DNA from: Candidatus Electrothrix scaldis
GTDB taxonomy: Bacteria; Desulfobacterota; Desulfobulbia; Desulfobulbales; Desulfobulbaceae
Direction: 5' to 3'
NCBI GenBank assembly: GCA_033584155.1
Contig: CP138355.1
Span: forward strand, 4,491,501 to 4,555,500
DNA: 64,000 nucleotides
Each line of letters opens with the position of its first letter. The stretch's first letter is position 1. Positions 2,084-16,190 of the stretch are shown here, one piece after another. The notes under the pieces were generated by a model. It was not told the DNA's origin, ran no database searches, and worked only from the letters and a program-made list of their open reading frames with translations. The position numbers and the translations under genes are program-made.

Positions 2084-3394
2084 CTATTCTATCTGCTCGT
2101 AAATATATCGGAGATCCTGGAGGAGCATACTTTCCAGGGTGGCATCAAGAAAGGGCTTCCGGCAATCCACCTGCCCCATATGGCCATCACGTTGGTAGGC
2201 CATATAACGGCAGCCACCAAAGCAGAGCGGCAGATATTTGCATTTCTGGCATTTCTCTTCTCGTTGCCAGTGCAAAAGGTGGTGGGATTCCTGATAGTCT
2301 TCGGTCACACCCTGCCAGACATCACCGATTTTATACTGCTCGTGCCCGACCCAGCACACGCATTTATAGAGGCTGCCGTCGTAATGCACAGTAAAGGCAT
2401 CATCCATCTCGACAGCACAGGGTTCCGGTCCCAGTTCTCCGATGGGATAGCCCCGTTGTAAGACCTCCTTACGTACATGAAGCGAAGCGTCACGCAGCCA
2501 GGGTTCGTTGATGGTGGCGCAGCCTCCCACGAATTCATTGCTGGTAATTTTATCCTGGACCTTCATCACGATATTAAAGCTGACCCGGTCTATCTTATCC
2601 GGGCTTATGCCGTCCTCAGCAAGCAGATCAAGGACCGTTGCGAAATCCTGGTATGTCTCGCTGGTGTAATTACCGCCCAGGCGAATATTAGTCTTCGAGC
2701 ATACCTTTTTTAGGTTCCCTGCGATAACATCAAAGCTCCCGACACCTGACTTGAAGGGGCGGAATTGATTATGGTTCTCTGGTGGTCCGTCGACGGTCAC
2801 CTTGACACCGTCCAAGCCCCATGCATTGAGCTCATCCACCACTTGCTCAGTGAGCAGGGAACCATTTGAAACCAAGGTAAAGACAAACTCCCCTTCTCTT
2901 TCCTCAACAAAGGGTTTCAAACGCTCTGCCAGATAGATAATCCGTTTGGTATAGAGGAGCGGTTCGCCCCCGTAGAGTTGCAAAATCAGCTTTTTCTTGC
3001 CGGGCTTGAAACGCTCTTTGATAAAAGCGATCAGTTGGTCTGCGGTCCGGTCGTCCATCGCCTTCTTCTCCCCTTTCTGTTGCCCCTCAAAACAGTACTT
3101 GCAGGCAAAGTTACATTCCATCCCCAGGATAAGGGCCAGGGTCAAATTGGGGTTATAGCGATTAATGTCCTCCATATATCGCACGACTTCCCGGTGTTCT
3201 GCCTCCAGGTCTTGGACGAGAAAACCCATCTCCGTGAGGGACGCAATATACTCGTTTTCCGTGTCCCCGTTTTGCAGGGCGGTAAAATCCTCTTCGGGCA
3301 AGAGGACAAGGGCACCGGTTTTGGTGGAAAAAAGCAGGACTTGATCCAGGATGGAGGGATGTCTATGGATAGTGAGGTAGGGGGTGAAATGCAT
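2084..3394 (-). CDS. Radical SAM/SPASM peptide maturase, geopeptide type
   Basis: The protein has an N-terminal RiPP-recognition-like region (about residues 1-85). The radical SAM cluster motif CNFACKYC follows near residues 94-101, counted from the ATG at 3394, then the GGEPLL motif and a SPASM domain with the cysteines EPCAVE, CVCWVG and CQKCKYLPLCFGGC. SPASM maturases use extra Fe-S clusters to build thioether or related crosslinks in small precursor peptides. The gene for a 32-residue Cys-Cys precursor lies just upstream. The ORF can also begin at a TTG at 3404-3406. I prefer the ATG at 3392-3394, although neither has a strong ribosome site. Confidence 0.88.
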   Translation of the reverse strand: MHFTPYLTIHRHPSILDQVLLFSTKTGALVLLPEEDFTALQNGDTENEYIASLTEMGFLVQDLEAEHREVVRYMEDINRYNPNLTLALILGMECNFACKYCFEGQQKGEKKAMDDRTADQLIAFIKERFKPGKKKLILQLYGGEPLLYTKRIIYLAERLKPFVEEREGEFVFTLVSNGSLLTEQVVDELNAWGLDGVKVTVDGPPENHNQFRPFKSGVGSFDVIAGNLKKVCSKTNIRLGGNYTSETYQDFATVLDLLAEDGISPDKIDRVSFNIVMKVQDKITSNEFVGGCATINEPWLRDASLHVRKEVLQRGYPIGELGPEPCAVEMDDAFTVHYDGSLYKCVCWVGHEQYKIGDVWQGVTEDYQESHHLLHWQREEKCQKCKYLPLCFGGCRYMAYQRDGHMGQVDCRKPFLDATLESMLLQDLRYIYEQIE

Positions 3395-3410
3395 TTTTCT
3401 GACCAAAGGA

Positions 3411-3438
3411 AATAAAAAAGGAGAGCCGAAGCTCTCCT
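3411..3438 (-). terminator. UUCG-loop hairpin with T-tract between geopeptide precursor and maturase
   Basis: Read on the minus strand this is AGGAGAGC, loop TTCG, GCTCTCCT, then TTTTT. It is a perfect 8-bp stem with an extra-stable UUCG tetraloop and a U-tract, i.e. a canonical intrinsic terminator. It lies after the precursor stop and directly before the maturase start. It probably works as a partial terminator, giving much precursor mRNA and little maturase mRNA. Confidence 0.85.
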
Positions 3439-3460
3439 CAGTAAAAAAATAATAGGTTAT

Positions 3461-3559
3461 TTATTTGTCAGATGAGGGTGAACCTTTACAACAAAGACCC
3501 TCAGCAGCTACAGTTTTAACATCTTTTCCTTTTTTAAGGACAATCATTTTCTTTTTCAT
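3461..3559 (-). CDS. Geopeptide-like RiPP precursor, 32 residues
   Basis: This small gene encodes a very basic leader (MKKKMIVLKKGKDVKT) followed by a short core with vicinal cysteines (EGLCCKGSPSSDK). A strong GGAGG-AAAAGGAG ribosome site sits just upstream of the ATG at 3557-3559. Geopeptide precursors are short, Lys-rich and end in a Cys-containing core beside a dedicated radical SAM maturase, and this pair fits. The mature product and its role are unknown. The hairpin at 3411-3438 separates it from the maturase gene. Confidence 0.85.
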   Translation of the reverse strand: MKKKMIVLKKGKDVKTVAAEGLCCKGSPSSDK

Positions 3560-3643
3560 ACTCCTTTTCCTCCATATTGAAATTTCTTAATGTAATTTCC
3601 TCTACAAAAAAAGAATCTTCCAAAGAAAAGCCATAAAGTCAAG

Positions 3644-5560
3644 TTAAAATTTCACAGCAAGCCCCACTTCTAGCCAACGTTCTGGGTTGGGATAGTCTCT
3701 ATCAAAGTACAGCTCCCCGTTAAAGATATTATGCCCTTTGAGGTAAAACTCGCCACTTCGGAAAGATATATCAAAGTCCTTTGCAATGAAAACGTCCCAG
3801 AGAAAAGAGCTAGTTGAGGGCTTCTCATTGAGTATGTAATCACTCATCCTGTAATAGCGACCAGCCATTTCTATTCGCAGACCATAAGCCGCGTTAAGGT
3901 AAGAAAGAATCAGGTTACCAATAGAGGTCTCATCATATTCCCAGATATTGATACTCGTCCCCTTATTTCTTTCTTTGACGTAGGTGAAATTTCCTGTCAG
4001 ACTTAGGCCACGATAATCAGCAGTTTTTACCTCAAACTCAAAACCATTGAGACGGGAGGTGCCGGTATTGGTCCAAGGAGGATAATCATTAAACTCCCAT
4101 GCATCGTCAATATCTTGATGAAATAAAGCCCCCTTGAGATGAAGATAGGAAATATACCCTGTCTCGATTCCGGCTTGGTAGGTCCAGGTGTTTTCCGGTT
4201 GGAGGTCTGGAGAAGTAGAGGAGGAGGATAAATAGGGAGCAGAAAAACCCTTGGCAATGGATCCCTTGAGCAGAGTAATCGGACTCAACTGATAGGTGAG
4301 ACCCAGTGAGGGATTTATTGATTCCTCTGAATTGGAGTAATAGTCATAGCGCAAGCCAGGAGTAATGGACAGATTGCCTTGAACGTATGTCATATTAGTA
4401 TATACACCATGCCTATCTTCTGTTACCGGATCATCTTCTGACAATGATGGCCCATCAAAAAACATCCCTAATCGGCTTCCATATTTCATCTCGCTACGAC
4501 TTGATTCAACACCTAGATTAGCGGCAACTGATCCTCTTGCCCAAGTGAGTCGACCAACAAAGGAGTTCGCCTCATCTTCCCACTTCTCCCCGAAAATCAG
4601 GTCCCCATAGTGTCCACCCAACCCAGTCCCCAAAGAGAGTCTATCTATTGCAAAATCATTATCAAAATGCTGACCGGAAACATGCAGACTAAAATCTTTT
4701 GTTATTTCAGTATCAAAATATACTGTACCCCAAAAATTTCGATTTTCAACATCTGTATAGAGATTAAGGTTCTCAATTCCCCAAGCATCCTTCCAGTTAA
4801 GACTTTTATTGAAAGGGTCACTGTAACCGCCAGTGATTGTCAGGCGTGAATTACGAGACAACTGAACCTGCATCTTGCCATAAGCGGAATCTCTTTTGGC
4901 GTAGCGGTCGAGACGGAGGCCGTCCGAAGCAATATTACCGCCATAGAGATAATAACCAAGGGCGTTCACCTTGCCAGCTACATCGACTGAAAAATCACGA
5001 CTACTCCTCTCGCCATAACTTACACTGATATTGCCAGTAGGACGGCTGGATTTACCTACCTCTTTGGTGATGATATTGATAACCCCACCAAGGGCAGAGC
5101 CCCAGGCAGAAGAGGCAGCTCCTTTTATGATCTCAATACGCTGAATAATGCCCAGAGGAATAAAATGAGTTAAGGCTCTGCCGTTTGAGTTAAGATTCAA
5201 GCGCACTCCGTCAAGGAGCAGTAACACATGATGCCGCCGTGATCCTAGAAGTCGGACAGATGAATCTCCGAGGAAGTCCTGTCCAAAAAAATCGACAAAT
5301 ACACCGGACTGCCGACTGAGCACTTCCGCCAAGGTATGGGCATGCATGGCCTCAATATCTTCAGCGGTAACGATGGTTACATTTTCCGCCACCTGGTTAA
5401 TGGGCTTTGGAGAACGGGTAGCTGTTTCAACCAACTCTTCTTCGTCAAAATAGAGTTCCAGAAGTTTTTCATCCTGATATGGAGTATTCGCCCGAGCAGA
5501 TGGGGCAGCAAGGAAGGCTGTAAGGAGCAGCAGAATCGCGAGAGAATTATCACTTTTCAT
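3644..5560 (-). CDS. TonB-dependent outer-membrane receptor, BtuB-like
   Basis: This 638-residue protein has a signal peptide (about residues 1-24, cut after SARA). A TonB-box-like acidic segment (ELVETATRSPKP) follows, then a plug domain with IVTAEDIEAMHAHTLAEVL, RLLGSRRHHVLLLLDGVRLN and ASSAWGSALGGVINIITK. After that comes a beta-barrel ending in a terminal phenylalanine (VGLAVKF), which is the BAM signal. Such receptors import metal chelates or cofactors using the TonB system. No substrate can be read directly. The gene is divergent from a periplasmic binding protein and its two-component genes, suggesting a shared ligand. I saw no cobalamin riboswitch upstream. Confidence 0.88.
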   Translation of the reverse strand: MKSDNSLAILLLLTAFLAAPSARANTPYQDEKLLELYFDEEELVETATRSPKPINQVAENVTIVTAEDIEAMHAHTLAEVLSRQSGVFVDFFGQDFLGDSSVRLLGSRRHHVLLLLDGVRLNLNSNGRALTHFIPLGIIQRIEIIKGAASSAWGSALGGVINIITKEVGKSSRPTGNISVSYGERSSRDFSVDVAGKVNALGYYLYGGNIASDGLRLDRYAKRDSAYGKMQVQLSRNSRLTITGGYSDPFNKSLNWKDAWGIENLNLYTDVENRNFWGTVYFDTEITKDFSLHVSGQHFDNDFAIDRLSLGTGLGGHYGDLIFGEKWEDEANSFVGRLTWARGSVAANLGVESSRSEMKYGSRLGMFFDGPSLSEDDPVTEDRHGVYTNMTYVQGNLSITPGLRYDYYSNSEESINPSLGLTYQLSPITLLKGSIAKGFSAPYLSSSSTSPDLQPENTWTYQAGIETGYISYLHLKGALFHQDIDDAWEFNDYPPWTNTGTSRLNGFEFEVKTADYRGLSLTGNFTYVKERNKGTSINIWEYDETSIGNLILSYLNAAYGLRIEMAGRYYRMSDYILNEKPSTSSFLWDVFIAKDFDISFRSGEFYLKGHNIFNGELYFDRDYPNPERWLEVGLAVKF

Positions 5561-5806: not shown

Positions 5807-6721
5807 ATGAATAAGTATCTCCTTCTTATCATTCTTTCATTTTTCAATCTGGCAGACAAAGCCTATAGCTATGAGATAGTGATACTCAAGAGCAGTGCGA
5901 GCAAGCTTAATCAAGATATTCAGGAGATATTTACTGAGGAATTTAATCAGCGCACTCCTCAAGGTGGTCTCAAAGCCATACAACGAAACCAGATAAAAGA
6001 TATCCTCATAACCAAGGAGGAGAAAGGGAGTTACACAAGTGCAATACAAAGCTTCCATCCTGATCTGATCCTCGCCATTGGTAGTCAAGCACTGGAAGAA
6101 GCCCTCCTCGTTCCTGATGTTCCTGTTGTTCACCTCCTCGTCGTTCATCCAGAAAAAATTATTACTGAGAGCAAACCCGTCATCGGCGTGAGCCTGTCCG
6201 TGCCACCCAAAGTGCAATTGAATGAAATGAGCCGTAATTTCCCTAAAGTAAAACGAGTGGGGATTATCTATGACCCAAAGCAAAGCAGCGAAGTGGTCAA
6301 ACAGATGAAAGCGCTCAGGCCTGACTTAGATTTCATCACCCTAGGCACTGAAGACATATCTCTGGTTCCTGGCTTGATCCACTCCTTACGTGGCAAGGTG
6401 GATCTTCTCTGGATGCTGCCTGACCTTACAACGACCAACAAGATAACCATTCAGAGTTACGTCCTTTTCTCAATCAGAAACAAAATCCCTTTGCTTACTT
6501 TTTCTCAGAAACTTCTCAACCAGGGAGCGACCATAGCCATAACCTTTGCTATAGATGAGATCGCCAAACAGGCTGCCGTCTTGGCTATGGACATGCTGCT
6601 TCATCCTATCAGAAGAGAACAGACAGGTCTTGTTGCCCCTCCGGTGCATACCAAGTTCAATCCTGTCATGGCAGCAAAGTTAGGAATACCCATCCCAGAT
6701 ACGAGAGGGACAGATGAATAA
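5807..6721 (+). CDS. Periplasmic substrate-binding protein, COG2984-like
   Basis: The frame opens at 5723, but the ATG at 5807 begins a clear signal peptide (MNKYLLLIILSFFNLADKAYS), so I start there. The mature domain has the Rossmann-like two-lobe pattern of ABC sugar/amino-acid-type binding proteins. Examples are LILAIGSQALEEALLVPDVPVVHLLV, RVGIIYDPKQSSEVVKQM and VDLLWMLPDLTTTNK. No ABC permease or ATPase is adjacent. Instead the stop overlaps the start of a histidine kinase by 8 bases. It therefore probably feeds ligand information to that kinase rather than to a transporter. Confidence 0.82.
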   Translation: MNKYLLLIILSFFNLADKAYSYEIVILKSSASKLNQDIQEIFTEEFNQRTPQGGLKAIQRNQIKDILITKEEKGSYTSAIQSFHPDLILAIGSQALEEALLVPDVPVVHLLVVHPEKIITESKPVIGVSLSVPPKVQLNEMSRNFPKVKRVGIIYDPKQSSEVVKQMKALRPDLDFITLGTEDISLVPGLIHSLRGKVDLLWMLPDLTTTNKITIQSYVLFSIRNKIPLLTFSQKLLNQGATIAITFAIDEIAKQAAVLAMDMLLHPIRREQTGLVAPPVHTKFNPVMAAKLGIPIPDTRGTDE

Positions 6722-8468
6722 GCCCTTTCCTCTTTTCCCGAAAAGCTTGAGCGCCAAGATATTTTTCTTCCTGATTATATCTATGGTGTGTATTGTCGCA
6801 TTGTTTAATATTGTTTTAATTAATATCCAAAAGAGAACCTATAAGTCTTCCCACGATGCACATGGGACTACCCTTATACGCCTGCTTGCCCACTCGGTCA
6901 CCCTGCCAGTTATTACTGAAAACAAAGCTGAAATGCATGCCTCTGTATCGGGGCTGCTGCTGCAGAATGATGTGCTTGAGGTAGTTATTTGGAATAAAAG
7001 AGGGGAGGTACTTCTCCAAGAAACAAAAAATCCAACCGCAAAAAAACGCATTACAGAAAGCGCTCTGGAGCTGGAAAAATCTTTTCACAAGCTGCATACG
7101 ATTGGCCAGCAGAGCATGGAAAGAGAGGATAGCTTTATTTTATGGGGGCCGATTCTTTTTAATGCAGAGCCAAGCACAGAAGAAGATTGGTATTTTGAAG
7201 AAGAGCATAAGAGCGCAGATAAAGAAGCTGTTGGCTCTGCGGCAATTGTTTTGTCGAAAAAATTTTTTGACAAAGGCGTGCATAATATCCTTGTGCAAAC
7301 AGGAGCCTCAATCCTTATCTTTCTTGCCATCATCATATTGACAACATTTCTCGTCATACAAAATGTAACGGAACCGTTGCGAAAATTAGTCCTCACAATA
7401 AAGGCGCGAGAAGGAAAAACCGACCAGCCCAGTGATTTGAAGATGTTGACCGAAACCTATACCAACATGCTTGATGATCTGGAGCGGTCTTTTCAAACCA
7501 TTAGCGAATTAAACGAAGGACTTGAAGAGCAAGTAAACATCCGAACAGCCCAGCTCACCGAGGCAAACAAGGAGCTCCATCAGAAACAACAAAAACTTGA
7601 GCGCAGTAATACGGATCTGGTCGAGGCACTGAATCGCTTAAAAGAAACCCAGGAGCAACTCATCCAGAAAGAAAAACTTGCAGCTATTGGACAGCTTGTG
7701 GCTGGAGTGGCACATGAACTGAACAATACAGTGAATTTTATTTCCGGTGCCTTCCCTTCTTTGCAACGTTCTCTAGCAGAAATGAAAGAAGTCCTTGCCG
7801 GATATGAAGCAGTAGAAGAAGCAAGAGGAACCAATCTACTGGAAAAAAAATTTGAGGAGGTAGAAAGTACAAAAGAAAAACTTGCTTATGAGGAGCTGCT
7901 GCTTACCATTGATCAACTGATGGAAAATATAGAAGAAGGAACCACACGTACAACGCGTATCGTTCGCGATCTTAAAATCTTTTCCCGAGAAGATGCGGAA
8001 AAGATTACGCCGATTGATCTGCACACAATTATTGATTCCACGCTTAATTATATTGATAAACAATCATTACAGGATATAACTATTCATCGTACCTACGGCT
8101 CTTTGCCGCTCGTTCATTGCCTGCCCGGACGAATAGGCCAGGTATTTCTCAATATCATGAATAACGGCATTCAGGCTATGGATGGGACAGGGCAATTGAC
8201 GATTACGACGGAGCAGAGAAATGAACAGATTCATGTGATTTTTTCCGACACGGGCTGCGGCATTCATGCAGAGGACGTAGCAAATATTTTTGATCCTTTT
8301 TTTACCACCAAGGAAGTTGGCTTAGGAACCGGGCTTGGGCTTGGGATATCGTACTCAATCATCAAACAACATGGTGGCGATATCAAAGTACGGAGCGTTG
8401 TTGGCAAGGGATCGACATTTGAAATTATTTTACCAATAAACCCCAGAGAACTCTCTCAAGATGCATAA
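6714..8468 (+). CDS. Membrane sensor histidine kinase
   Basis: This 584-residue protein has TM1 at about residues 14-37 and an extracytoplasmic sensor region to about 190. TM2 spans about 195-217, followed by a HAMP-like linker and a long coiled coil (about 250-320). The H-box is GVAHELNN with His334; it reads HELNNTV where most relatives have HELNNPL. The N-box (FLNIMNNGIQAM), G1 (DTGCGI), F (FDPFF) and G2 (GTGLGLGI) motifs are all present, so the ATPase is intact. Translation is coupled to the upstream binding protein by an 8-base overlap, suggesting the binding protein is its ligand sensor. The likely partner is the receiver-kinase that follows. Confidence 0.9.
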   Translation: MNKPFPLFPKSLSAKIFFFLIISMVCIVALFNIVLINIQKRTYKSSHDAHGTTLIRLLAHSVTLPVITENKAEMHASVSGLLLQNDVLEVVIWNKRGEVLLQETKNPTAKKRITESALELEKSFHKLHTIGQQSMEREDSFILWGPILFNAEPSTEEDWYFEEEHKSADKEAVGSAAIVLSKKFFDKGVHNILVQTGASILIFLAIIILTTFLVIQNVTEPLRKLVLTIKAREGKTDQPSDLKMLTETYTNMLDDLERSFQTISELNEGLEEQVNIRTAQLTEANKELHQKQQKLERSNTDLVEALNRLKETQEQLIQKEKLAAIGQLVAGVAHELNNTVNFISGAFPSLQRSLAEMKEVLAGYEAVEEARGTNLLEKKFEEVESTKEKLAYEELLLTIDQLMENIEEGTTRTTRIVRDLKIFSREDAEKITPIDLHTIIDSTLNYIDKQSLQDITIHRTYGSLPLVHCLPGRIGQVFLNIMNNGIQAMDGTGQLTITTEQRNEQIHVIFSDTGCGIHAEDVANIFDPFFTTKEVGLGTGLGLGISYSIIKQHGGDIKVRSVVGKGSTFEIILPINPRELSQDA

Positions 8469-8549
8469 TCAGGAGCACGTTTTCTTGGATAGTTACGAAT
8501 GATTTCAAATTGAAATCCAAAAATATAGGGCGTTATCAGGAGAGGCGTT

Positions 8550-9623
8550 TTGACAAAACTCAAGCTGCTGTATGTTGACGATGAACGGGTCAACCTAACG
8601 AATTTCACAATTGCTTTTAAAAAAAAATACCAGATATATACAGCGAACTCCGGCCCGGAAGCACTGAAGATTTTTCAGGAGAATGACGATATCGCGATTG
8701 TTGTCACGGACCAACGTATGCCCGGCATGACAGGCGTTGAGTTACTGCAACATATTAAAGAACATAATGAGGATGCCATTCGGATCATCTTAACAGCCTA
8801 TACGGATGCTACGGATATAATTGACTCAATCAATAAGGGGCATATCTACCAGTATATAGTCAAACCTTGGATAGAGAAAGATCTAGCACAAGTACTCGAC
8901 AAGGCCAGTGAAATTTTCCTCCTTGTCCGTGAAAATAAGCGCCTTGTAAAAGAATTACAGCGCCTCTCTGCCCGGCTTATCGATGCCCAGGAAAATGAAA
9001 GAAAGCGTATTGCAATGGAACTGCATGATGATATTGGGCAAAACCTTATAGCATTGAAAATGCAATTCAATAATTTTTGTTTTCAGCTTGAATCAAGCGA
9101 CAAGGAAGAGATACAGGAAACAGCCACTATTATCAGTAGCACCTTGCAAAGAACCCTGGAAAGCACCAGATGTATTTGCCAGAATCTCTGGCCACTGGTT
9201 GTTGAAAAATTCGGCTGTGACTTGGCCCTGAAGGAATTGCTGGATAACTTCAGCCGAGATTACAGTATAGAAGTTATTTCAGGCGGTATTCAGATCCAGC
9301 AGTACTTCTCAAAGCACGATCAATACCAAATCTATCGAATACTACAGGAAATATTAAACAATATCGGAAAACATTCTGGAACGAAAAAGATCAAGATTCA
9401 GGCGACCTGCAACGAGGACTCCCTGTGTATTGAAATCGCCGACTTTGGCTGTGGTTTTGACCCACCGGATCTGGCTGGCAATCATGAAAAAAAAGGCTGC
9501 TTGGGCTTAACGACCATCCGGGAAAGAGCAACTATCCTCGGGGGCAGCATTGACATCCAGAGTTGCCGAGAAAAAGGAACGCAATGCATCTTGGTATTAC
9601 CTCACTCCGGTGCTCTTTACTAA
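8550..9623 (+). CDS. Receiver domain fused to a NarX-type histidine kinase
   Basis: The start is a TTG at 8550 preceded by CAGGAGAGG at good spacing. Residues 1-120 form a receiver domain: acidic pocket D10, D11 and E12, phospho-acceptor Asp54 in VVTDQRMPG, and Lys105 in YIVKPW. A short helix leads into a HisKA_3 dimerisation helix with His159 in RIAMELHDDIGQNLIALK. A HATPase domain follows, with NNIGKHSG (N-box), DFGCGF and GLTTIRERA. There is no DNA-binding domain, so it probably passes phosphate to a LuxR-type regulator not present here. It follows the sensor kinase by about 80 bases. Confidence 0.9.
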   Translation: MTKLKLLYVDDERVNLTNFTIAFKKKYQIYTANSGPEALKIFQENDDIAIVVTDQRMPGMTGVELLQHIKEHNEDAIRIILTAYTDATDIIDSINKGHIYQYIVKPWIEKDLAQVLDKASEIFLLVRENKRLVKELQRLSARLIDAQENERKRIAMELHDDIGQNLIALKMQFNNFCFQLESSDKEEIQETATIISSTLQRTLESTRCICQNLWPLVVEKFGCDLALKELLDNFSRDYSIEVISGGIQIQQYFSKHDQYQIYRILQEILNNIGKHSGTKKIKIQATCNEDSLCIEIADFGCGFDPPDLAGNHEKKGCLGLTTIRERATILGGSIDIQSCREKGTQCILVLPHSGALY

Positions 9624-10126: not shown

Positions 10127-10987
10127 TTATTTTTTGCCGAGCTGTTGCTTTAATTCCTCAATAAGCTTTTTCTGATCATCAAGCTCTCTTTTCTGATCAT
10201 CAAGTTCCCTTTTCTGGTCATTGATGGTTTTATCACGCACTGCGATGATGCGTTCAAGGCCGCCGAGTTCCTCTATGATTTCATCCTCTACATCCATCGT
10301 TCTCCTGACCTGGGGTTCGGAAGCCGCTTTTATCAGTCTTCGGATCACCTCCCTGTACTCCGCAGGGTACTCGGACTCAGAAATATCAAGAAAATGGGGA
10401 GTCTTCACCGAAGCGGGCTGCTCGAACACCGCCAGCACCTTTTCCAGCAGGTTTCTCCGTTTCCGCCTGAGTTCGGGAATCTGAATGACGAAACTGTCGT
10501 GGGTCAGGCTTTCAATAAATTCTTCCCGAACCGGAAGCTCCCCACCCGTGGCGTTGTCGTAATACTTCCGCGCCACCCTGATGACCGGAACATGAACATT
10601 GTCCAACCGGTGGCCCAGAAAATAAATACTCAGGATCGGACATGCCTTTGATCTGTCCCCCTGTTCGTACACGTTATTTTTGTTGGAGTACTGTTTGCCG
10701 AGATAATTGCGGAACCGCATGATGTCGGTGGAGAATTTAGCCTTCTGTATTTCAATAATAATTCGTTTGAAATTTCCGTCGGGCAGGCGCACGGTTGCGG
10801 CGAAGTCGAGCCGGTAGACCGTGAGCGATCTGTTTCCCTTATCCACATCATCGCTGTATTCTGTGGGCTGGAATTCAAGGCTTTCTATCTCATCGCCAAT
10901 GATGAGAGAGATGATCTTTTTTGCTACGCTGTTGTCGTCCATCAGATATTTGAACACAACATCATACACCGGATTCGCTATCTGCAC
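10127..10987 (-). CDS. Rpn-like PD-(D/E)XK nuclease, tandem copy 1 (downstream-most)
   Basis: This 286-residue protein belongs to the Rpn / PD-(D/E)XK transposase-like nuclease family. It opens with the hallmark DVVFKYLMDDN segment. The nuclease core has Asp in RLDFAATVRLPDG and the EIQK motif in IIIEIQKAKFS, matching the D...ExQ/K active site. Rpn proteins are DNA nucleases that promote recA-independent recombination. Its C-terminal coiled coil differs from the other two copies: it repeats DDQKREL where they repeat DEKDRKL. It is nearly identical to its neighbours over the first 240 residues, and only 19 bases separate it from copy 2. Confidence 0.9.
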   Translation of the reverse strand: MQIANPVYDVVFKYLMDDNSVAKKIISLIIGDEIESLEFQPTEYSDDVDKGNRSLTVYRLDFAATVRLPDGNFKRIIIEIQKAKFSTDIMRFRNYLGKQYSNKNNVYEQGDRSKACPILSIYFLGHRLDNVHVPVIRVARKYYDNATGGELPVREEFIESLTHDSFVIQIPELRRKRRNLLEKVLAVFEQPASVKTPHFLDISESEYPAEYREVIRRLIKAASEPQVRRTMDVEDEIIEELGGLERIIAVRDKTINDQKRELDDQKRELDDQKKLIEELKQQLGKK

Positions 10988-11006
10988 TGTTTTCGTCCTG
11001 ATATTT

Positions 11007-11888
11007 TTATTTTTTGCCCAGTTGTTGCTTTAATTCCGCAATGAGCCTGTCCTTCTCGTCAAGTTTCCTGTCCTTCTCGTCAAGTTTCCTGTCCTTCTCG
11101 TCAAGCTCCCTGTCTTTCTGCTCGATGGTTTTATCACGCACCGCGATGATGCGTTCAAGACCACCGAGTTCCTCTATGATTTCATCCTCTACATCCATCG
11201 TTCTCCTGACCTGGGGTTCGGAAGCCGCTTTTATCAGTCTTCGGATCACCTCCCTGTACTCCGCAGGGTACTCGGACTCAGAAATATCAAGAAAATGGGG
11301 CGTCTTCACCGAAGCGGGCTGCTCGAACACTGCCAGCACCTTTTCCAGCAGGTTTCTCCGTTTTTTTCTGAGTTCGGGGATCTGAATGACGAAGCTGTCG
11401 TGGGTCAGGCTTTCAATAAATTCTTCCTGAACCGGAAGTTCCCCGCCCGTGGCGTTGTCGTAATACTTCCGCTCCACCCTGATGACCGGAACATGAACAT
11501 TGTCCAGCCGGTGGCCCAGAAAATAAATACTCAGGATTGGACATGCCTTTGATCTGTCCCCCTGTTCGTATACGTTGTTTTTATTGGAGTACTGTTTGCC
11601 GAGATAATTGCGGAACCGCATGATGTCGGTGGAGAATTTAGCCTTCTGTATTTCAATAATAATTCGTTTGAAATTCCCGTCGGGCAGGCGCACGGTCGCG
11701 GCAAAGTCGAGCCGGTAGACCGTGAGCGATCTGTTTCCCTTATCCACATCATCGCTGTATTCTGTGGGCTGGAATTCAAGGCTTTCTATCTCCTCGCCGA
11801 TGATGAGAGAGATGATCTTTTTTGCTACGCCGTTGTCGTCCATCAGATATTTGAAGACAACATCATACACCGGATTCGCTATCTGCAC
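11007..11888 (-). CDS. Rpn-like PD-(D/E)XK nuclease, tandem copy 2
   Basis: This copy has 293 residues, seven more than the other two. The extra length is one more EKDRKLD heptad in the C-terminal coiled coil. The catalytic segment (LDFAAT, EIQK) is unchanged, so the enzyme should be active. One visible difference is V instead of I or S in the DDNGVAKK loop near the N-terminus. The gene is flanked on both sides by the same short spacer, showing that the duplication unit is gene plus spacer. Copies 3, 2 and 1 are read in that order, presumably from one promoter upstream of copy 3. Confidence 0.9.
   Translation of the reverse strand: MQIANPVYDVVFKYLMDDNGVAKKIISLIIGEEIESLEFQPTEYSDDVDKGNRSLTVYRLDFAATVRLPDGNFKRIIIEIQKAKFSTDIMRFRNYLGKQYSNKNNVYEQGDRSKACPILSIYFLGHRLDNVHVPVIRVERKYYDNATGGELPVQEEFIESLTHDSFVIQIPELRKKRRNLLEKVLAVFEQPASVKTPHFLDISESEYPAEYREVIRRLIKAASEPQVRRTMDVEDEIIEELGGLERIIAVRDKTIEQKDRELDEKDRKLDEKDRKLDEKDRLIAELKQQLGKK
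11046..11118 (-). repeat. 21-bp coding tandem repeat in the coiled-coil tail of Rpn copy 2
   Basis: The unit GTCCTTCTCGTCAAGTTTCCT (complement strand encodes EKDRKLD) is repeated here about three times with slight divergence at the ends. Copy 3 has one unit fewer at 11950-11995. Because the unit is 21 bases, slippage changes the coiled coil by one heptad without breaking the frame. Confidence 0.8.
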
Positions 11889-11907
11889 TGTTTTCGTCCT
11901 GATATTT

Positions 11908-12768
11908 TTATTTTTTGCCCAGTTGTTGCTTTAATTCCGCAATGAGCCTGTCCTTCTCGTCAAGTTTCCTGTCCTTCTCGTCAAGCTCCCTGTCTTTCTG
12001 CTCGATGGTTTTATCACGCACCGCGATGATGCGTTCAAGACCGCCGAGTTCCTCTATGATTTCATCCTCTACATCCATCGTTCTCCTGATCTGGGGTTCG
12101 GAAGCCGCTTTTATCAGTCTTCGGATCACCTCCCTGTACTCCGCAGGGTACTCGGACTCAGAAATATCAAGAAAATGGGGCGTTTTCTTCGAAACGGGCT
12201 GTTCAAATACCGCCAGCACCTTTTCCAGCAGGTTTCTCCGTTTCCGCCTGAGTTCGGGAATCTGAATGACGAAGCTGTCATGGGTCAGGCTTTCAATAAA
12301 TTCTTCCCGAACCGGAAGTTCCCCGCCCGTGGCGTTGTCGTAATACTTCCGCTCCACCCTGATGACCGGAACATGAACATTGTCCAGCCGGTGGCCCAGA
12401 AAATAAATACTCAGGATCGGACATGCCTTTGATCTGTCCCCCTGTTCGTACACGTTGTTTTTATTGGAGTACTGTCTGCCGAGATAATTGCGGAACCGCA
12501 TGATGTCGGTGGAGAATTTGGCCTTCTGTATTTCAATAATAATTCGTTTGAAGTTTCCGTCGGGCAGGCGCACGGTCGCGGCAAAGTCGAGCCGGTAGAC
12601 CGTGAGCGATCTGTTTCCCTTGTCCACATCATCGCTGTATTCTGTGGGCTGGAATTCAAGGCTTTCTATCTCCTCGCCAATGATGAGAGAGATGATCTTT
12701 TTTGCTACGCTGTTGTCGTCCATCAGATATTTGAAGACAACATCATACACCGGATTCGCTATCTGCAC
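11908..12768 (-). CDS. Rpn-like PD-(D/E)XK nuclease, tandem copy 3 (promoter-proximal)
   Basis: This is the first gene of the three on the minus strand. It has the same nuclease core as the other two and three DEKDR-type heptads before the terminal AELKQQLGKK. It differs from copy 2 by exactly one heptad (21 bases) in the tail, and by a few substitutions (VSKKTPH versus VAS/KTPH, and IRRTMD versus VRRTMD). The region upstream (12769-13025) contains palindromes and may hold the promoter. Rpn proteins are widespread in mobile islands, and this island also contains a NACHT gene. Confidence 0.9.
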   Translation of the reverse strand: MQIANPVYDVVFKYLMDDNSVAKKIISLIIGEEIESLEFQPTEYSDDVDKGNRSLTVYRLDFAATVRLPDGNFKRIIIEIQKAKFSTDIMRFRNYLGRQYSNKNNVYEQGDRSKACPILSIYFLGHRLDNVHVPVIRVERKYYDNATGGELPVREEFIESLTHDSFVIQIPELRRKRRNLLEKVLAVFEQPVSKKTPHFLDISESEYPAEYREVIRRLIKAASEPQIRRTMDVEDEIIEELGGLERIIAVRDKTIEQKDRELDEKDRKLDEKDRLIAELKQQLGKK

Positions 12769-13025: not shown

Positions 13026-16000
13026 TCAAACCAATGACTCCTCATCGACAGATGACAATTTTTCTTGCTTACGTGGACACCCCTTTTCAACATCCCAGCC
13101 AAGAAATTCATTGAGCGAGGCAAGCTGTGCTGGTATTTCTTCCGGCTGGATGCCTGCTTTTTCAGCCGCCTTATTGATTATCTTACGTTTAACTGGCTTG
13201 CGCGGATCACGAGGGGGGATGGCCCCATCCACATCTTTTGAAAAGATGAAGCCGCCAAGTTTCGAGTGACGACGTCCTAGCACCCATGCAGCTACACCAC
13301 GGTTCCAAGCGATATCCGATTCTGAAACGTTTTTTTGCAGTACTTCATTCTGTTCCCCTTCATAAGTTTCCGGTTCTACACGAATCGGAGTAAATATTCC
13401 GATTGGATCACTCCTAAACTCAGGCAGGGCTGTTTTTCTTCCCTGCAACGCGGCGTAAAGGTCTTCGACTTGGCACCCATGAGCTCGGCAAACAGTTACC
13501 CATGCTTTGCTTAAACGTTTTCGAGCAGGTGAAGATGTATATAAAGTCAATAGATAAGCTGTAACGCTCATTAGTAACCCAGTCAAGGCACCAGATAAAA
13601 AACTTGATTCTCTTATAAAATAAAGCACAAAGCTTCCGAAAAAAAAATATCCAAGAAATACCCATAAAAACAAGAAAATTACAATAAGTGAAAAATAGAT
13701 CGTTTTTCTATAAATTGACTCCTCAAAACGACTACAAAAATTATTCAATATAAACAAAGCAAAAGGATAGATAACTTTTCTATAATAAATACTTTGCAAG
13801 TTCGTTTTATTCTCAAGAATATCATGATGACGAACAGGTATTATCGAAAAATACCACAGTATTTTTGTGAAGCGTTGAGGATGTAATATCTGTTCCAGCA
13901 GAAATCCTGCAACCTCTGTTGATGAAAGCTGTAGAATGGTATCTCCGGCTCTTCGTAAGATAAGTAGCTCCCCAAAATAGCTCCTCACAACATCATTCCG
14001 CAATACCGAATCAAAAGATATATCCAGCACTGAATGAATTGTAAGGATATCATCATGTTCCTTCTCTGCTAATTTCCGTTCCGCATAATCAGCAGCCAAA
14101 TATTCAAGAAAGGACTTATGCCCGAAACGAAAAGTACCGTCTGCCACATCCTTGACTAGCAAGCCACAAACCCGGACATCATCCTTCAAACGTCCCAGAA
14201 AATCCTCTGATTGCTTGATACGCTCTTGAATCGGTAGATTTTCCTGCCCTTCCCGCGCGTCAGAAGTCCGTGAAATAGAATCCGGGCAGACCCGTGCCAG
14301 TTTCTCCGTTATTTCCTCCAAGTCTGCGAGACGGATTTGATTGCTCTCATCCTTGCGCATCATGTACACAGCAATACCGAGCATGAAATATCGTCGCTCC
14401 GCAGCATTGAGCACCATATAATTTTTCGGCTGTGCCCCGTAACCACGTTCGGCATCCTCTATTTCCCGTCGCCGTAATTCCAGAGCCTTTTCCGTCTGCC
14501 GCTCAAGCGATGCATCCAGAAAACGTTGCATCAATTCTGCGGCGGTCAGCTCGTCGGCTCGTTGCACCAACTCCTTGTCTCCCCAAAAAACAGAGAGAAC
14601 ATGGAGTAGGGACGGACGGCCTGCAATGTCTTTCAGGCGAGGATTATTATTAACTGCTTGGACAATACCGTTTCGTACTTCATCTGAGGCATTGCGGAGT
14701 GCCCGTTCAATTTCTTTGTTATTAAATTTTTCCAGATACCAGGCTTCGCAGGCGAGTTCACCACTGCTGCCGGGCAGGATACCGAGGGCTGCCTTGAGTT
14801 CGTTATCATCAAGGAAGAGGTTGGGACGGCCTGTTATGATCAGTTTGGCCTTCCGGTGATTGAAATTCCAGAGGCTTTGGAAATGGCGCAAACGTTCCTG
14901 GGGGTTGCCGACAAGGGTCATCTCGTCAAAGCCGTCAAAGATGAGCAACAGACGACCTGCTTCATGCAGTACTTTAAGCGGTCTGCTTGCTATGCCGTAA
15001 GCATCACCCCAGGCACCAAGCAGCTCACCGGGATTCATGGTCGCCGGGCTTTTGCCGCGCAATTCAATAAAAATCGGAATTCGCTCAAGCTGCTCAACAC
15101 CTTTATTGAGCAGATGATGGGTGAGCATCAGGCCGATGGTACTTTTTCCCTGTCCGTATTCACCAAGAATTGCCAACTGCTTGGAGCTGGTACTGCCGAG
15201 CCAGTCATTGATAGCCTGCTCAATATCCGCTTCGTCCTGCTCTGCTCCGTCCCGGCGAAAACGTGGCCTGACATAAGTAGCTTCCAGACTCAGCTCAGAT
15301 TCCTGCAACAGATCAGAGGCAACCCGTTCCCGTATTTTTTCCGCGTACTCGGAAAAATCAATTAATCCCTTCAGGAGATCATCAAGACTGATGACTTCAA
15401 ATATTTCCCCATCCAGCTGAAGTTTTTTGTCTGGACTCGGTGTTTGGAGGCAGAGAATGAACTCCTGCGGTGGCTCCTGCATCTTTTCGACATACCGAAG
15501 AAATGCCTGCAATGCAACCTGCTCCGGCAGAGCTACAAAACAGAGTACAGCTACCCGGTGCCCATGATCCCGATGCCGGGCAAGCCAGAAATTATGCTCG
15601 GCTCGCCATTCCTCTTCAAAGGCCAGCATATTTCTGCGCATTTTGAGCAATGTCCTGGCTAAATCACGCCATGCGACCGGCTCTACCTGTTGCCCGAGAT
15701 CTGGCAGCTTTGGACTTCCAACAGGCGGTTTGTAGGGCACAAGGGGTGAGTTCTTAACCAGAAGATAACGAAAACCAATCTTTGCTTCCTGGAGCATCCC
15801 TCTGTCTGCCTCACCTTGTCTTGCAAGATACGTTTCCCTGGTTACCTGCCCATTCCATAAGCGAAAAATCTGGTAGACCAGAAAATACATGCCAAATAAT
15901 GTGACAACAATGAGGGCTGCTGAAACCGGACTTAATGAGGTGGGGAGAAGTTCTCCAGTGCGTACGTAATGGACAACAGCGAGAACCTGTTGCCAAGGCG

Positions 16001-16190
16001 GGGCATTACCGGCGATCGTTGCAAAGGCTGCAAGGGTCAACGCGATACAACTGGAAAGAGCGAAGAAGGCAAAACGTTCCCGCGTATAGCGACGGCGACG
16101 AAACCAAAAATAGAGAGCAAAGCCGACTGAAAGGCAGACTAATATGGCAAAAAATGCCCCAAAAAATGAAACTGTAAGTTCAATCGTCAT
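13026..16190 (-). CDS. Membrane-anchored NACHT domain STAND NTPase (NLR-like)
   Basis: This 1054-residue protein begins with three hydrophobic helices, near residues 8-30, 42-60 and 90-110. A basic/acidic linker and a domain containing HRVAVLCFVALPEQ... and FEVISLDDLLKGL follow (about 200-300). The NACHT ATPase comes next: Walker A GEYGQGKST at 343-351, Walker B LLLIFDGFDEM at 414-424 with the diagnostic acidic DGFDE, and sensor KLIITGRPN. The winged-helix part ends with FRFGHKSFLEYLAADY (about 687-702), the usual NACHT hallmark. Two further TM helices lie at about 830-858 and 866-885, then a soluble tail. Bacterial NACHT proteins act in antiphage defence. That role here is inferred. Confidence 0.87.
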   Translation of the reverse strand: MTIELTVSFFGAFFAILVCLSVGFALYFWFRRRRYTRERFAFFALSSCIALTLAAFATIAGNAPPWQQVLAVVHYVRTGELLPTSLSPVSAALIVVTLFGMYFLVYQIFRLWNGQVTRETYLARQGEADRGMLQEAKIGFRYLLVKNSPLVPYKPPVGSPKLPDLGQQVEPVAWRDLARTLLKMRRNMLAFEEEWRAEHNFWLARHRDHGHRVAVLCFVALPEQVALQAFLRYVEKMQEPPQEFILCLQTPSPDKKLQLDGEIFEVISLDDLLKGLIDFSEYAEKIRERVASDLLQESELSLEATYVRPRFRRDGAEQDEADIEQAINDWLGSTSSKQLAILGEYGQGKSTIGLMLTHHLLNKGVEQLERIPIFIELRGKSPATMNPGELLGAWGDAYGIASRPLKVLHEAGRLLLIFDGFDEMTLVGNPQERLRHFQSLWNFNHRKAKLIITGRPNLFLDDNELKAALGILPGSSGELACEAWYLEKFNNKEIERALRNASDEVRNGIVQAVNNNPRLKDIAGRPSLLHVLSVFWGDKELVQRADELTAAELMQRFLDASLERQTEKALELRRREIEDAERGYGAQPKNYMVLNAAERRYFMLGIAVYMMRKDESNQIRLADLEEITEKLARVCPDSISRTSDAREGQENLPIQERIKQSEDFLGRLKDDVRVCGLLVKDVADGTFRFGHKSFLEYLAADYAERKLAEKEHDDILTIHSVLDISFDSVLRNDVVRSYFGELLILRRAGDTILQLSSTEVAGFLLEQILHPQRFTKILWYFSIIPVRHHDILENKTNLQSIYYRKVIYPFALFILNNFCSRFEESIYRKTIYFSLIVIFLFLWVFLGYFFFGSFVLYFIRESSFLSGALTGLLMSVTAYLLTLYTSSPARKRLSKAWVTVCRAHGCQVEDLYAALQGRKTALPEFRSDPIGIFTPIRVEPETYEGEQNEVLQKNVSESDIAWNRGVAAWVLGRRHSKLGGFIFSKDVDGAIPPRDPRKPVKRKIINKAAEKAGIQPEEIPAQLASLNEFLGWDVEKGCPRKQEKLSSVDEESLV

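Follow-up and report, generated by a model that had tools for sequence, protein, structure and literature searches.

A geopeptide-type precursor gene in Candidatus Electrothrix scaldis, its radical SAM maturase and the adjacent TonB receptor module

What is made from a peptide gene of 32 codons that stands just upstream of a radical S-adenosylmethionine (SAM)/SPASM maturase gene, and where might the product go? The pair lies in Candidatus Electrothrix scaldis, in a stretch of 64,000 nucleotides (nt) of contig CP138355.1 (assembly GCA_033584155.1, positions 4,491,501 to 4,555,500 of the forward strand), which is called the window here and to which all coordinates refer. A sequence-only reading had proposed a geopeptide cassette, making a ribosomally synthesised and post-translationally modified peptide (RiPP), with a 32-residue precursor upstream of a SPASM maturase. 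The interval it gave, 3394-3559, runs from the start of the maturase gene (ATG 3392-3394) to the start of the precursor gene. This identification was borne out, as the maturase passes the NCBIfam model TIGR04280 and the small open reading frame (ORF) is conserved. The reading favoured here, at a probability of roughly 0.6, is that of a geopeptide-type RiPP cassette whose product is modified, released, and then captured and sensed through a TonB-dependent receptor, in an arrangement like that of methanobactin.

The precursor gene and its relatives

The precursor gene is found on the reverse strand at 3461-3559. Read from the sequence, it consists of an ATG start, 32 codons and a TAA stop, is preceded by the Shine-Dalgarno sequence AAGGAG (3561..3566, same strand), and predicts the geopeptide-type peptide MKKKMIVLKKGKDVKTVAAEGLCCKGSPSSDK. 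A putative split at the Cys-Cys pair would give the leader MKKKMIVLKKGKDVKTVAAEGL and the core CCKGSPSSDK, both within 3461..3559. The leader is lysine-rich with a net charge of +5, and there are two cysteines in the 32 residues. Only one precursor copy was detected in the genome (40-row precursor profile, E 1.5e-13), and the genome search found none elsewhere, which rules out further copies.

Relatives were sought in 395 genomes drawn from the larger phylum (TIGR04280 matches with E of at most 1e-80 in 35, above its cut-off in 31) and in 257 genomes of the order (64 with a maturase match, 61 over the cut-off), and named contigs were also searched for maturases (among the matches listed). The maturases collected were 104 distinct sequences; 96 scoring at least 420 bits against an alignment profile were kept and the eight below were left out. 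A pattern detector requiring, within 300 nt, an ATG, a Shine-Dalgarno sequence, the motif hydrophobic-x-hydrophobic-x-x-[GASQPDE] and then CC was positive for the DNA upstream of 71 of 94 maturases and for 2 of 1059 control windows taken at these loci. Matches of at least 15 bits to the precursor profile lie beside 87/96 maturases and beside 0/96 when the ORFs were reversed, although the 87 arise partly by construction because the 40 rows of the profile were taken from the same loci. Among the nine misses, five have a weaker match (9.7-14.9 bits) at the expected position and four are on contigs with 1.5 kb or less upstream. Six precursor sequences (that of the window, four of its genus and one of its family) gave values of 0.62 for pS and 0.19 for pN (synonymous and nonsynonymous change, respectively), and in the same six the stop codon varies between TAA, TAG and TGA while the position of the frame end is constant. 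The codons of the window precursor are under purifying selection. The control windows, the reversed ORFs and this selection exclude a chance ORF as the source of the 32-mer, and the small ORF is a real gene, with a conserved adjacent counterpart beside homologous maturases.

The available precursor model does not recover this gene. TIGR04229, the NCBIfam model, has 22 positions and a cut-off of 30 bits; it matches 10 of 40 precursors at E up to 1 (best E 1.4e-10), and the best score among ten precursors scanned singly was 29.6 bits, just under the cut-off. The window 32-mer matches no NCBIfam or Pfam model, and at its place in the genome TIGR04229 gave no match even at E 10. Comparison of the peptide with the geopeptide precursor model, which had been proposed as a check, thus came out negative, as it did at E up to 1 for 30 of a set of 40 precursors to which the window peptide belongs. 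None of 11 genomes of the class matched TIGR04229, though two of them (G088 and G145) bear cassettes. On sequence grounds the window peptide is homologous to geopeptides but falls outside TIGR04229, the maturase being a member of its family and the precursor a variant. Because the model misses 30/40 precursors, the geopeptide family is under-annotated, and ordinary annotation misses the window precursor because it has no match to TIGR04229. The earlier statement that ordinary ORF calling overlooks the gene is correct for a length cut-off above 32 aa but not for an ORF listing at 25 aa, which shows it.

A collection of 92 distinct precursors, each verified as encoded in its locus, was used to define what is shared. 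The second Cys is present in 92/92 and the first in 90/92, although these peptides were gathered mostly by a Cys-Cys search and the 90/92 is partly a product of selection. The two one-Cys variants carry Asn (L172) or Gly (L176) at the first Cys position, and such natural variants could tell which cysteine carries the chemistry. The leader contains a hydrophobic strand, with Leu at -15 in 59/92 and Gly at -12 in 58/92 relative to the first Cys, often followed by V-A; V-L-x-x-G is found in much of the family and corresponds to KKMIVLKKGK in the window. The basic leader noted earlier is a property of the window peptide and not of the family, where leader net charge is positive in 40, neutral in 3 and negative in 49 of the 92. 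The core sequence is variable. Exactly 8 residues follow the Cys pair in 39/92, the fourth of the residues after the pair is Pro in 45/92 and the eighth is Lys or Arg in 55/92, hence in longer tails too. The 92 precursors suggest that the features to be retained are the second Cys, the hydrophobic leader strand and, in many cases, a basic residue at the eighth place behind the Cys pair.

The collection leaves out L066 and L220, where the maturases are distant, and the second precursor of L213. Ten maturase loci are without an entry: L057, L059 and L163, where the start or leader is not settled; L189 and L210, where the precursor was recovered later by the profile; L026, L136, L212 and L065, with little upstream DNA; and L055, represented by L191 on the same contig. 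Five of the 92 peptides come from loci with the maturase missing, partial or cut (L255, L256, L257, L263 and L264). Loci that appeared to have no precursor (L048, L055, L051, L172 and L176) have it farther off, on the other strand or in a one-Cys form.

Further arrangements were observed. In L213 two precursors lie ahead of one maturase, and in L197 and L043 two whole cassettes are near each other. L059, from a metagenome-assembled genome of Nitrospirae, has a precursor (-292 to -52 upstream of the maturase at 8998) with a leader formed by a long lysine-rich repeat, ending AACCMGKPYVLK. Sister maturases in L053, L054 and L068 score 283-336 bits and are outside the family; downstream of them are small ORFs that begin MKLxVxKKG-like and have a single Cys, possibly a sister peptide family with a similar leader.

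The maturase and the predicted modification

The maturase gene (2084..3394, reverse strand) predicts a radical SAM/SPASM protein of 436 aa with an RRE-like (RiPP recognition element) domain at the N-terminus (residues 1 to about 80). It scores 471.1 bits against TIGR04280, 'geopeptide radical SAM maturase' (cut-off 400), over profile positions 3-427 of 428, and 473.3 bits in the genome search with this model. The closest named maturase among the matches listed, at 49%, is from an uncultured Desulfobulbaceae bacterium, and within the genus a maturase match was found in five of eight genomes, one of the three without being 69% complete. Relatives keep C325-G339-C344 and C381-C384-C390-C394-C410 of the standard SPASM motif, together with a near-invariant C291 besides it (numbering without the first Met).

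An AlphaFold2 model of the window maturase, built with 24 relatives, has a predicted local distance difference test score (pLDDT) of 89.6. The first solved fold match of the whole protein is CteB, 5WHY (Z 27.8, root-mean-square deviation 4.5, 384 residues, 21% identity). The anaerobic sulfatase maturase 4k38 is tied with it by Z (26.9) over a shorter region (329 residues, from residue 82 on), and by sequence CteB is the best solved match (E 2e-35, versus 1.6e-17 for 4k38). Folded alone, the first 83 residues form three strands and then three helices (pLDDT 91.9), and the 13 best VIA-align rows for this domain are all RiPP enzymes or their RREs (Z 7.2 to 3.5). TbiB1, lasso peptide synthetase B1 and TigE lead (Z 7.2 each), followed by ThcOx, McbB and CteB (Z 5.0 to 3.7), with SuiB also among the 13; a family absent from these structure-match lists was not counted as excluded. 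A PqqD-like winged-helix (RRE) domain was thus recognised at the N-terminus, though with weak scores (Z no higher than 7.2). Counting against this assignment, it rests on Z of about 7, where less than 8 alone is weak, and the best Foldseek E is 0.014.

In CteB the RRE holds the leader in beta-strand form, and the open auxiliary cluster is a possible binding site for a Cys (PMC8326336). For the window, the leader strand would dock on the fused N-terminal RRE and so place the Cys-Cys core in the radical SAM/SPASM active site. Judged from the fold, modification is very probably RRE-guided. Covariation was assessed by Mantel tests in 51 of 86 loci, those with a full-length receptor and binding protein. 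Leader and core distances both track maturase distance when TonB is controlled (partial r 0.33 and 0.26, p 0.002), as would be predicted for a maturase that reads the peptide. That the 32-mer and the enzyme constitute a modified peptide cassette appears, from sequence, almost certain. The enzyme would introduce a link through sulphur or another oxidative change, for which the second Cys would be the most important residue; a thioether is predicted at even odds with a C-C bond, an epimer or another product.

The short region between the two genes includes a terminator-like hairpin on the reverse strand (3418..3439), with a 9 bp stem, a UUCG loop and a T tract. Its predicted stability is -16.8 kcal/mol (z -2.9), equalled by 0/200 shuffles. 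Among 70 loci in which 25-260 nt separate precursor and maturase, 48 have such a hairpin, compared with 11% of the gap sequences after single-base shuffling. This count excludes four loci in which the gap exceeds 260 nt and any locus where the precursor was not called automatically. The element may act as an attenuator, a terminator after the precursor gene that would give more peptide than enzyme.

The TonB receptor, sensor genes and transporter

Directly upstream of the precursor gene and on the same strand is a gene for a TonB-dependent outer-membrane receptor of 638 aa (3644..5560; PF00593, PF07715). Divergent from it, genes on the forward strand fill 5807-9623. The first (5807..6721) predicts a periplasmic binding protein of Pfam ABC_sub_bind (PF04392, scanned from 5810), with a signal peptide recognised by eye. 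The second (6714..8468), whose frame overlaps the first by 8 bases, predicts a sensor histidine kinase (HATPase_c, with HisKA below its cut-off), and the third (8550..9623) combines a receiver with a HisKA_3 histidine kinase and is a likely downstream signalling partner. The sequence-only reading, right as to the cassette, made no mention of the receptor, binding protein and kinase.

A relative of the window receptor is present in 81/81 loci with at least 2.5 kb of upstream DNA, lying upstream on the same strand in 65, upstream and divergent in 15 and downstream in 1, and was seen in 6/15 loci with less flank. The genome has 11 TonB plugs in 5.09 Mb, and a chance neighbour would be expected about once in a hundred. 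The distance from the TonB stop to the precursor start has a median of 91 nt (n=43, gaps under 600). When ORFs of at least 80 aa within 7 kb of the maturase were clustered for the 96 loci, the receptor was found in 85/96, the binding protein in 70/96 and the kinase family in 68/96. The next family, in 11/96, is that of transporters of the major facilitator superfamily (MFS); cluster 6 merely reflects the strand opposite the maturase gene, and cluster 11 and ranks below 13 were left unnamed. Of 55 loci for which 6.5 kb or more of upstream DNA was available, 54 contain TonB, 50 the binding protein, 41 the kinase and 21 the receiver-kinase; TonB adjoins the binding protein in 45, and the binding protein adjoins the kinase on one strand in 39. 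The conserved receptor and the usual periplasmic sensor, whose genes accompany those of such peptides in many anaerobic bacteria, suggest that the peptides are captured and sensed from outside the cell. The modified product, alone or in complex with a ligand such as a metal, would enter through the TonB receptor encoded beside it, and its arrival would be reported by the binding protein and histidine kinase.

The same module would serve a secreted autoinducer, with receptor, binding protein and kinase as the sensing chain and no other ligand. The overlapping frames of binding protein and kinase, their usual side-by-side position, the receiver-histidine kinase gene that follows them in the window and is near in others, and the fact that no ABC (ATP-binding cassette) permease family was recognised among the recurring neighbours would all suit such a signal. 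It is nonetheless unlikely, as TonB import usually serves scarce nutrients, core and receptor do not covary, and a candidate release transporter is found in just 9/96 cassettes.

That transporter is of the MFS, detected by tblastn. In six of the nine loci (L026, L048, L055, L136, L210 and L212) the gene is antisense between precursor and maturase, or the contig ends there; in L213 it is between receptor and precursor, and in L051 and L182 it directly follows the maturase. Seven (L055, L210, L051, L136, L182, L213 and L026) pass the Pfam model MFS_3, 'transmembrane secretion effector', a family that includes siderophore exporters; the L212 fragment passes MFS_1 only and the L048 gene was outside the Pfam scan. 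On this evidence the cassette MFS protein is a candidate exporter. Where the MFS gene parts the precursor from the maturase, by about 1.7 kb, the precursor stays beside the TonB gene (L048; L055, also seen as L268). The product would accordingly be released via the MFS protein where present and via an unlinked route elsewhere, its leader having been removed by a protease encoded elsewhere. Because a transporter was found in cassettes, the estimate that the modified product is the ligand of the TonB receptor was raised from even to slightly better than even. Besides MFS, the minor neighbour families scanned through representatives are an M23 peptidase, a polysaccharide deacetylase, two methyltransferases, LeuA-like and aspartokinase-like proteins and one without a match.

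If the peptide instead remained within the cell, serving there as a cofactor for redox or metal handling or activating an imported compound, the receptor would bring in an unrelated substrate, for example a corrinoid or metal chelate. The many cassettes in which neither an MFS gene nor a leader protease family was recognised fit this, as does BtuB (E 1.9e-20), which precedes the colicin I receptor as the nearest solved relative of the window receptor. A short precursor with a radical SAM enzyme also has a precedent in the RiPP-derived cofactor pyrroloquinoline quinone (PQQ). However, the window receptor reaches just 129 bits against the B12-receptor model, far under the cut-off of 599.7, the precursor remains by the TonB gene even when parted from its maturase, and an MFS_3-type transporter inside nine cassettes favours release; an intracellular role is considered rather improbable.

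Loci with a reduced or missing maturase also bear on capture. In L254 and L255 the maturase is a C-terminal remnant while receptor, binding protein and kinase remain, and in L257 these three are present and a maturase was not found. Of 66 binding-protein matches in the order (E about 1e-30 or better), 48 are within 9 kb of a maturase, 11 have one on another contig or farther off, and 7 are in genomes without a called maturase. Among these seven, genome G500 keeps only about the last 130 maturase residues, in G485 the precursor is intact while about 57 C-terminal residues of the maturase are left, and G605 has a precursor with no maturase sequence in the 3.7 kb below. In G486 the contig end falls inside the maturase, in G589 and G614 the receptor is at a contig end, and in G505 a gene for a more distantly related maturase-like protein (228 bits) lies some 5 kb away. 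Retention of receptor, binding protein and kinase beside remnant maturases is what would be predicted for receivers in which production has been lost.

Several results weigh against a released product that is captured through the receptor. No MFS gene of this type is present in the available DNA of 87/96 cassettes, including the window (2.1 kb beyond the maturase), and neither a leader protease nor an ABC permease was recognised among the recurring neighbours (eight minor families scanned). The loci are related by descent, and 81/81 does not represent 81 independent events. No covariation of core and TonB receptor was detected beyond that with the maturase (partial r 0.08, p 0.13, 51 loci). 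The sequences thus give no indication of a receptor that reads the core, and recognition of the core by the receptor was rejected on this non-significant partial Mantel test. Fur- and Zur-like sites in 50 TonB/binding-protein intergenic regions were no better than in single-base shuffles, and iron or zinc regulation was rejected, one region with 15 of 19 Fur positions notwithstanding. At gathering thresholds the window and four relatives gave no riboswitch, only a distant tRNA. With neither Fur/Zur enrichment nor a riboswitch, a metal role is without direct support. The receptor-only loci represent three genomes, two of them many-contig drafts.

The variable core would also suit a weapon against competitors, bacteriocin-like or otherwise toxic, for which the TonB receptor would be the point of entry; some RiPPs are known to enter cells by this route. 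The producer itself encodes the receptor, however, the recurring neighbours include no family recognised as immunity-like, and the core length and second Cys are constant, making this very improbable. Capture and sensing of a released product remains the preferred reading, and the gene context turns it into a concrete hypothesis for the role of geopeptides, namely receptor-mediated uptake and sensing.

Beyond the sensor genes, the window includes three tandem, near-identical genes on the reverse strand (10127-12768) for proteins of 286-293 aa with a repeated charged tail of the DDQKRELD or EKDRKLDEK type. A Pfam scan of the first at E 0.001 gave no match, and the three are reminiscent of transposase/nuclease-like proteins. 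Beyond them a reverse-strand gene (13026-16190) predicts a product of 1054 aa that has hydrophobic stretches and a NACHT NTPase domain (32.4 bits) and is a candidate for a defence protein of the STAND type.

Comparison with known systems

The geopeptide system, already named by NCBIfam curators (TIGR04280/TIGR04229), is a known kind. The window shares with it a maturase over the cut-off and, just upstream on the same strand, a Cys-Cys peptide with a V-L-x-x-G-type leader; it differs in having no TIGR04229 match and a lysine-rich leader, and the TonB, binding-protein and kinase association is absent from the model names. Searches of the open-access literature by family names and NCBIfam identifiers found no study of this family (subscription papers and supplements being outside their scope), and searches joining radical SAM or RiPP with TonB or Geobacter found no paper on it, judged partly by titles. 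This agrees with the earlier remark that structure and role are unknown. As far as the literature was covered, the out-of-model precursor, one-Cys variants, the TonB/binding-protein/kinase association, the in-cassette transporter, the hairpin statistic and the receiver-only loci are new.

The ranthipeptide maturase CteB (PDB 5WGG, 5WHY) shares the RRE, radical SAM and SPASM architecture, but its SCIFF precursor has six Cys in about 45 residues, compared with two in 32 in the window peptide and one in two family variants. Ranthipeptides are defined by a thioether away from the alpha carbon, and sactipeptides by one between S and C-alpha. For uptake, a precedent is offered by PQQ, a small cofactor imported by the TonB-dependent receptor PqqU (PMC12124388). 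PqqU serves users that need not make PQQ, and the match between the window receptor and the PQQ transporter structure is weak (E 7.2e-6).

The closest parallel in arrangement is with methanobactin. Its precursor MbnA has 23-35 aa, with a Lys/Arg-rich leader better conserved than the Cys core of 7-15 aa, the product has a TonB-dependent transporter (MbnT), and the MATE protein MbnM is the proposed exporter (PMC3621798). The likeness lies in precursor size and make-up, in the constant TonB-dependent receptor gene and in the transporter of nine geopeptide cassettes, and the differences in the biosynthetic core, MbnB/MbnC there and a radical SAM enzyme here, and in MFS here versus MATE there. No match to MbnB (PF05114) was found in the genome by a search that was positive in 2/14 control genomes, MbnC not being searched for, and membership of the methanobactin family is excluded because the genome is without an MbnB-family gene. 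A product that works like methanobactin, and that may bind copper or another metal, is a hypothesis by analogy. More tentatively still, and doubtful as a whole, geopeptides may be a widespread radical-SAM-made counterpart of methanobactin in Geobacter/Desulfobulbus-type anaerobes: a two-Cys peptide of about 10 residues, released in some cases via a cassette MFS exporter, loaded with ligand outside, re-imported by its own TonB receptor and detected by a binding protein and kinase devoted to it, while certain lineages would have retained the receiver only.

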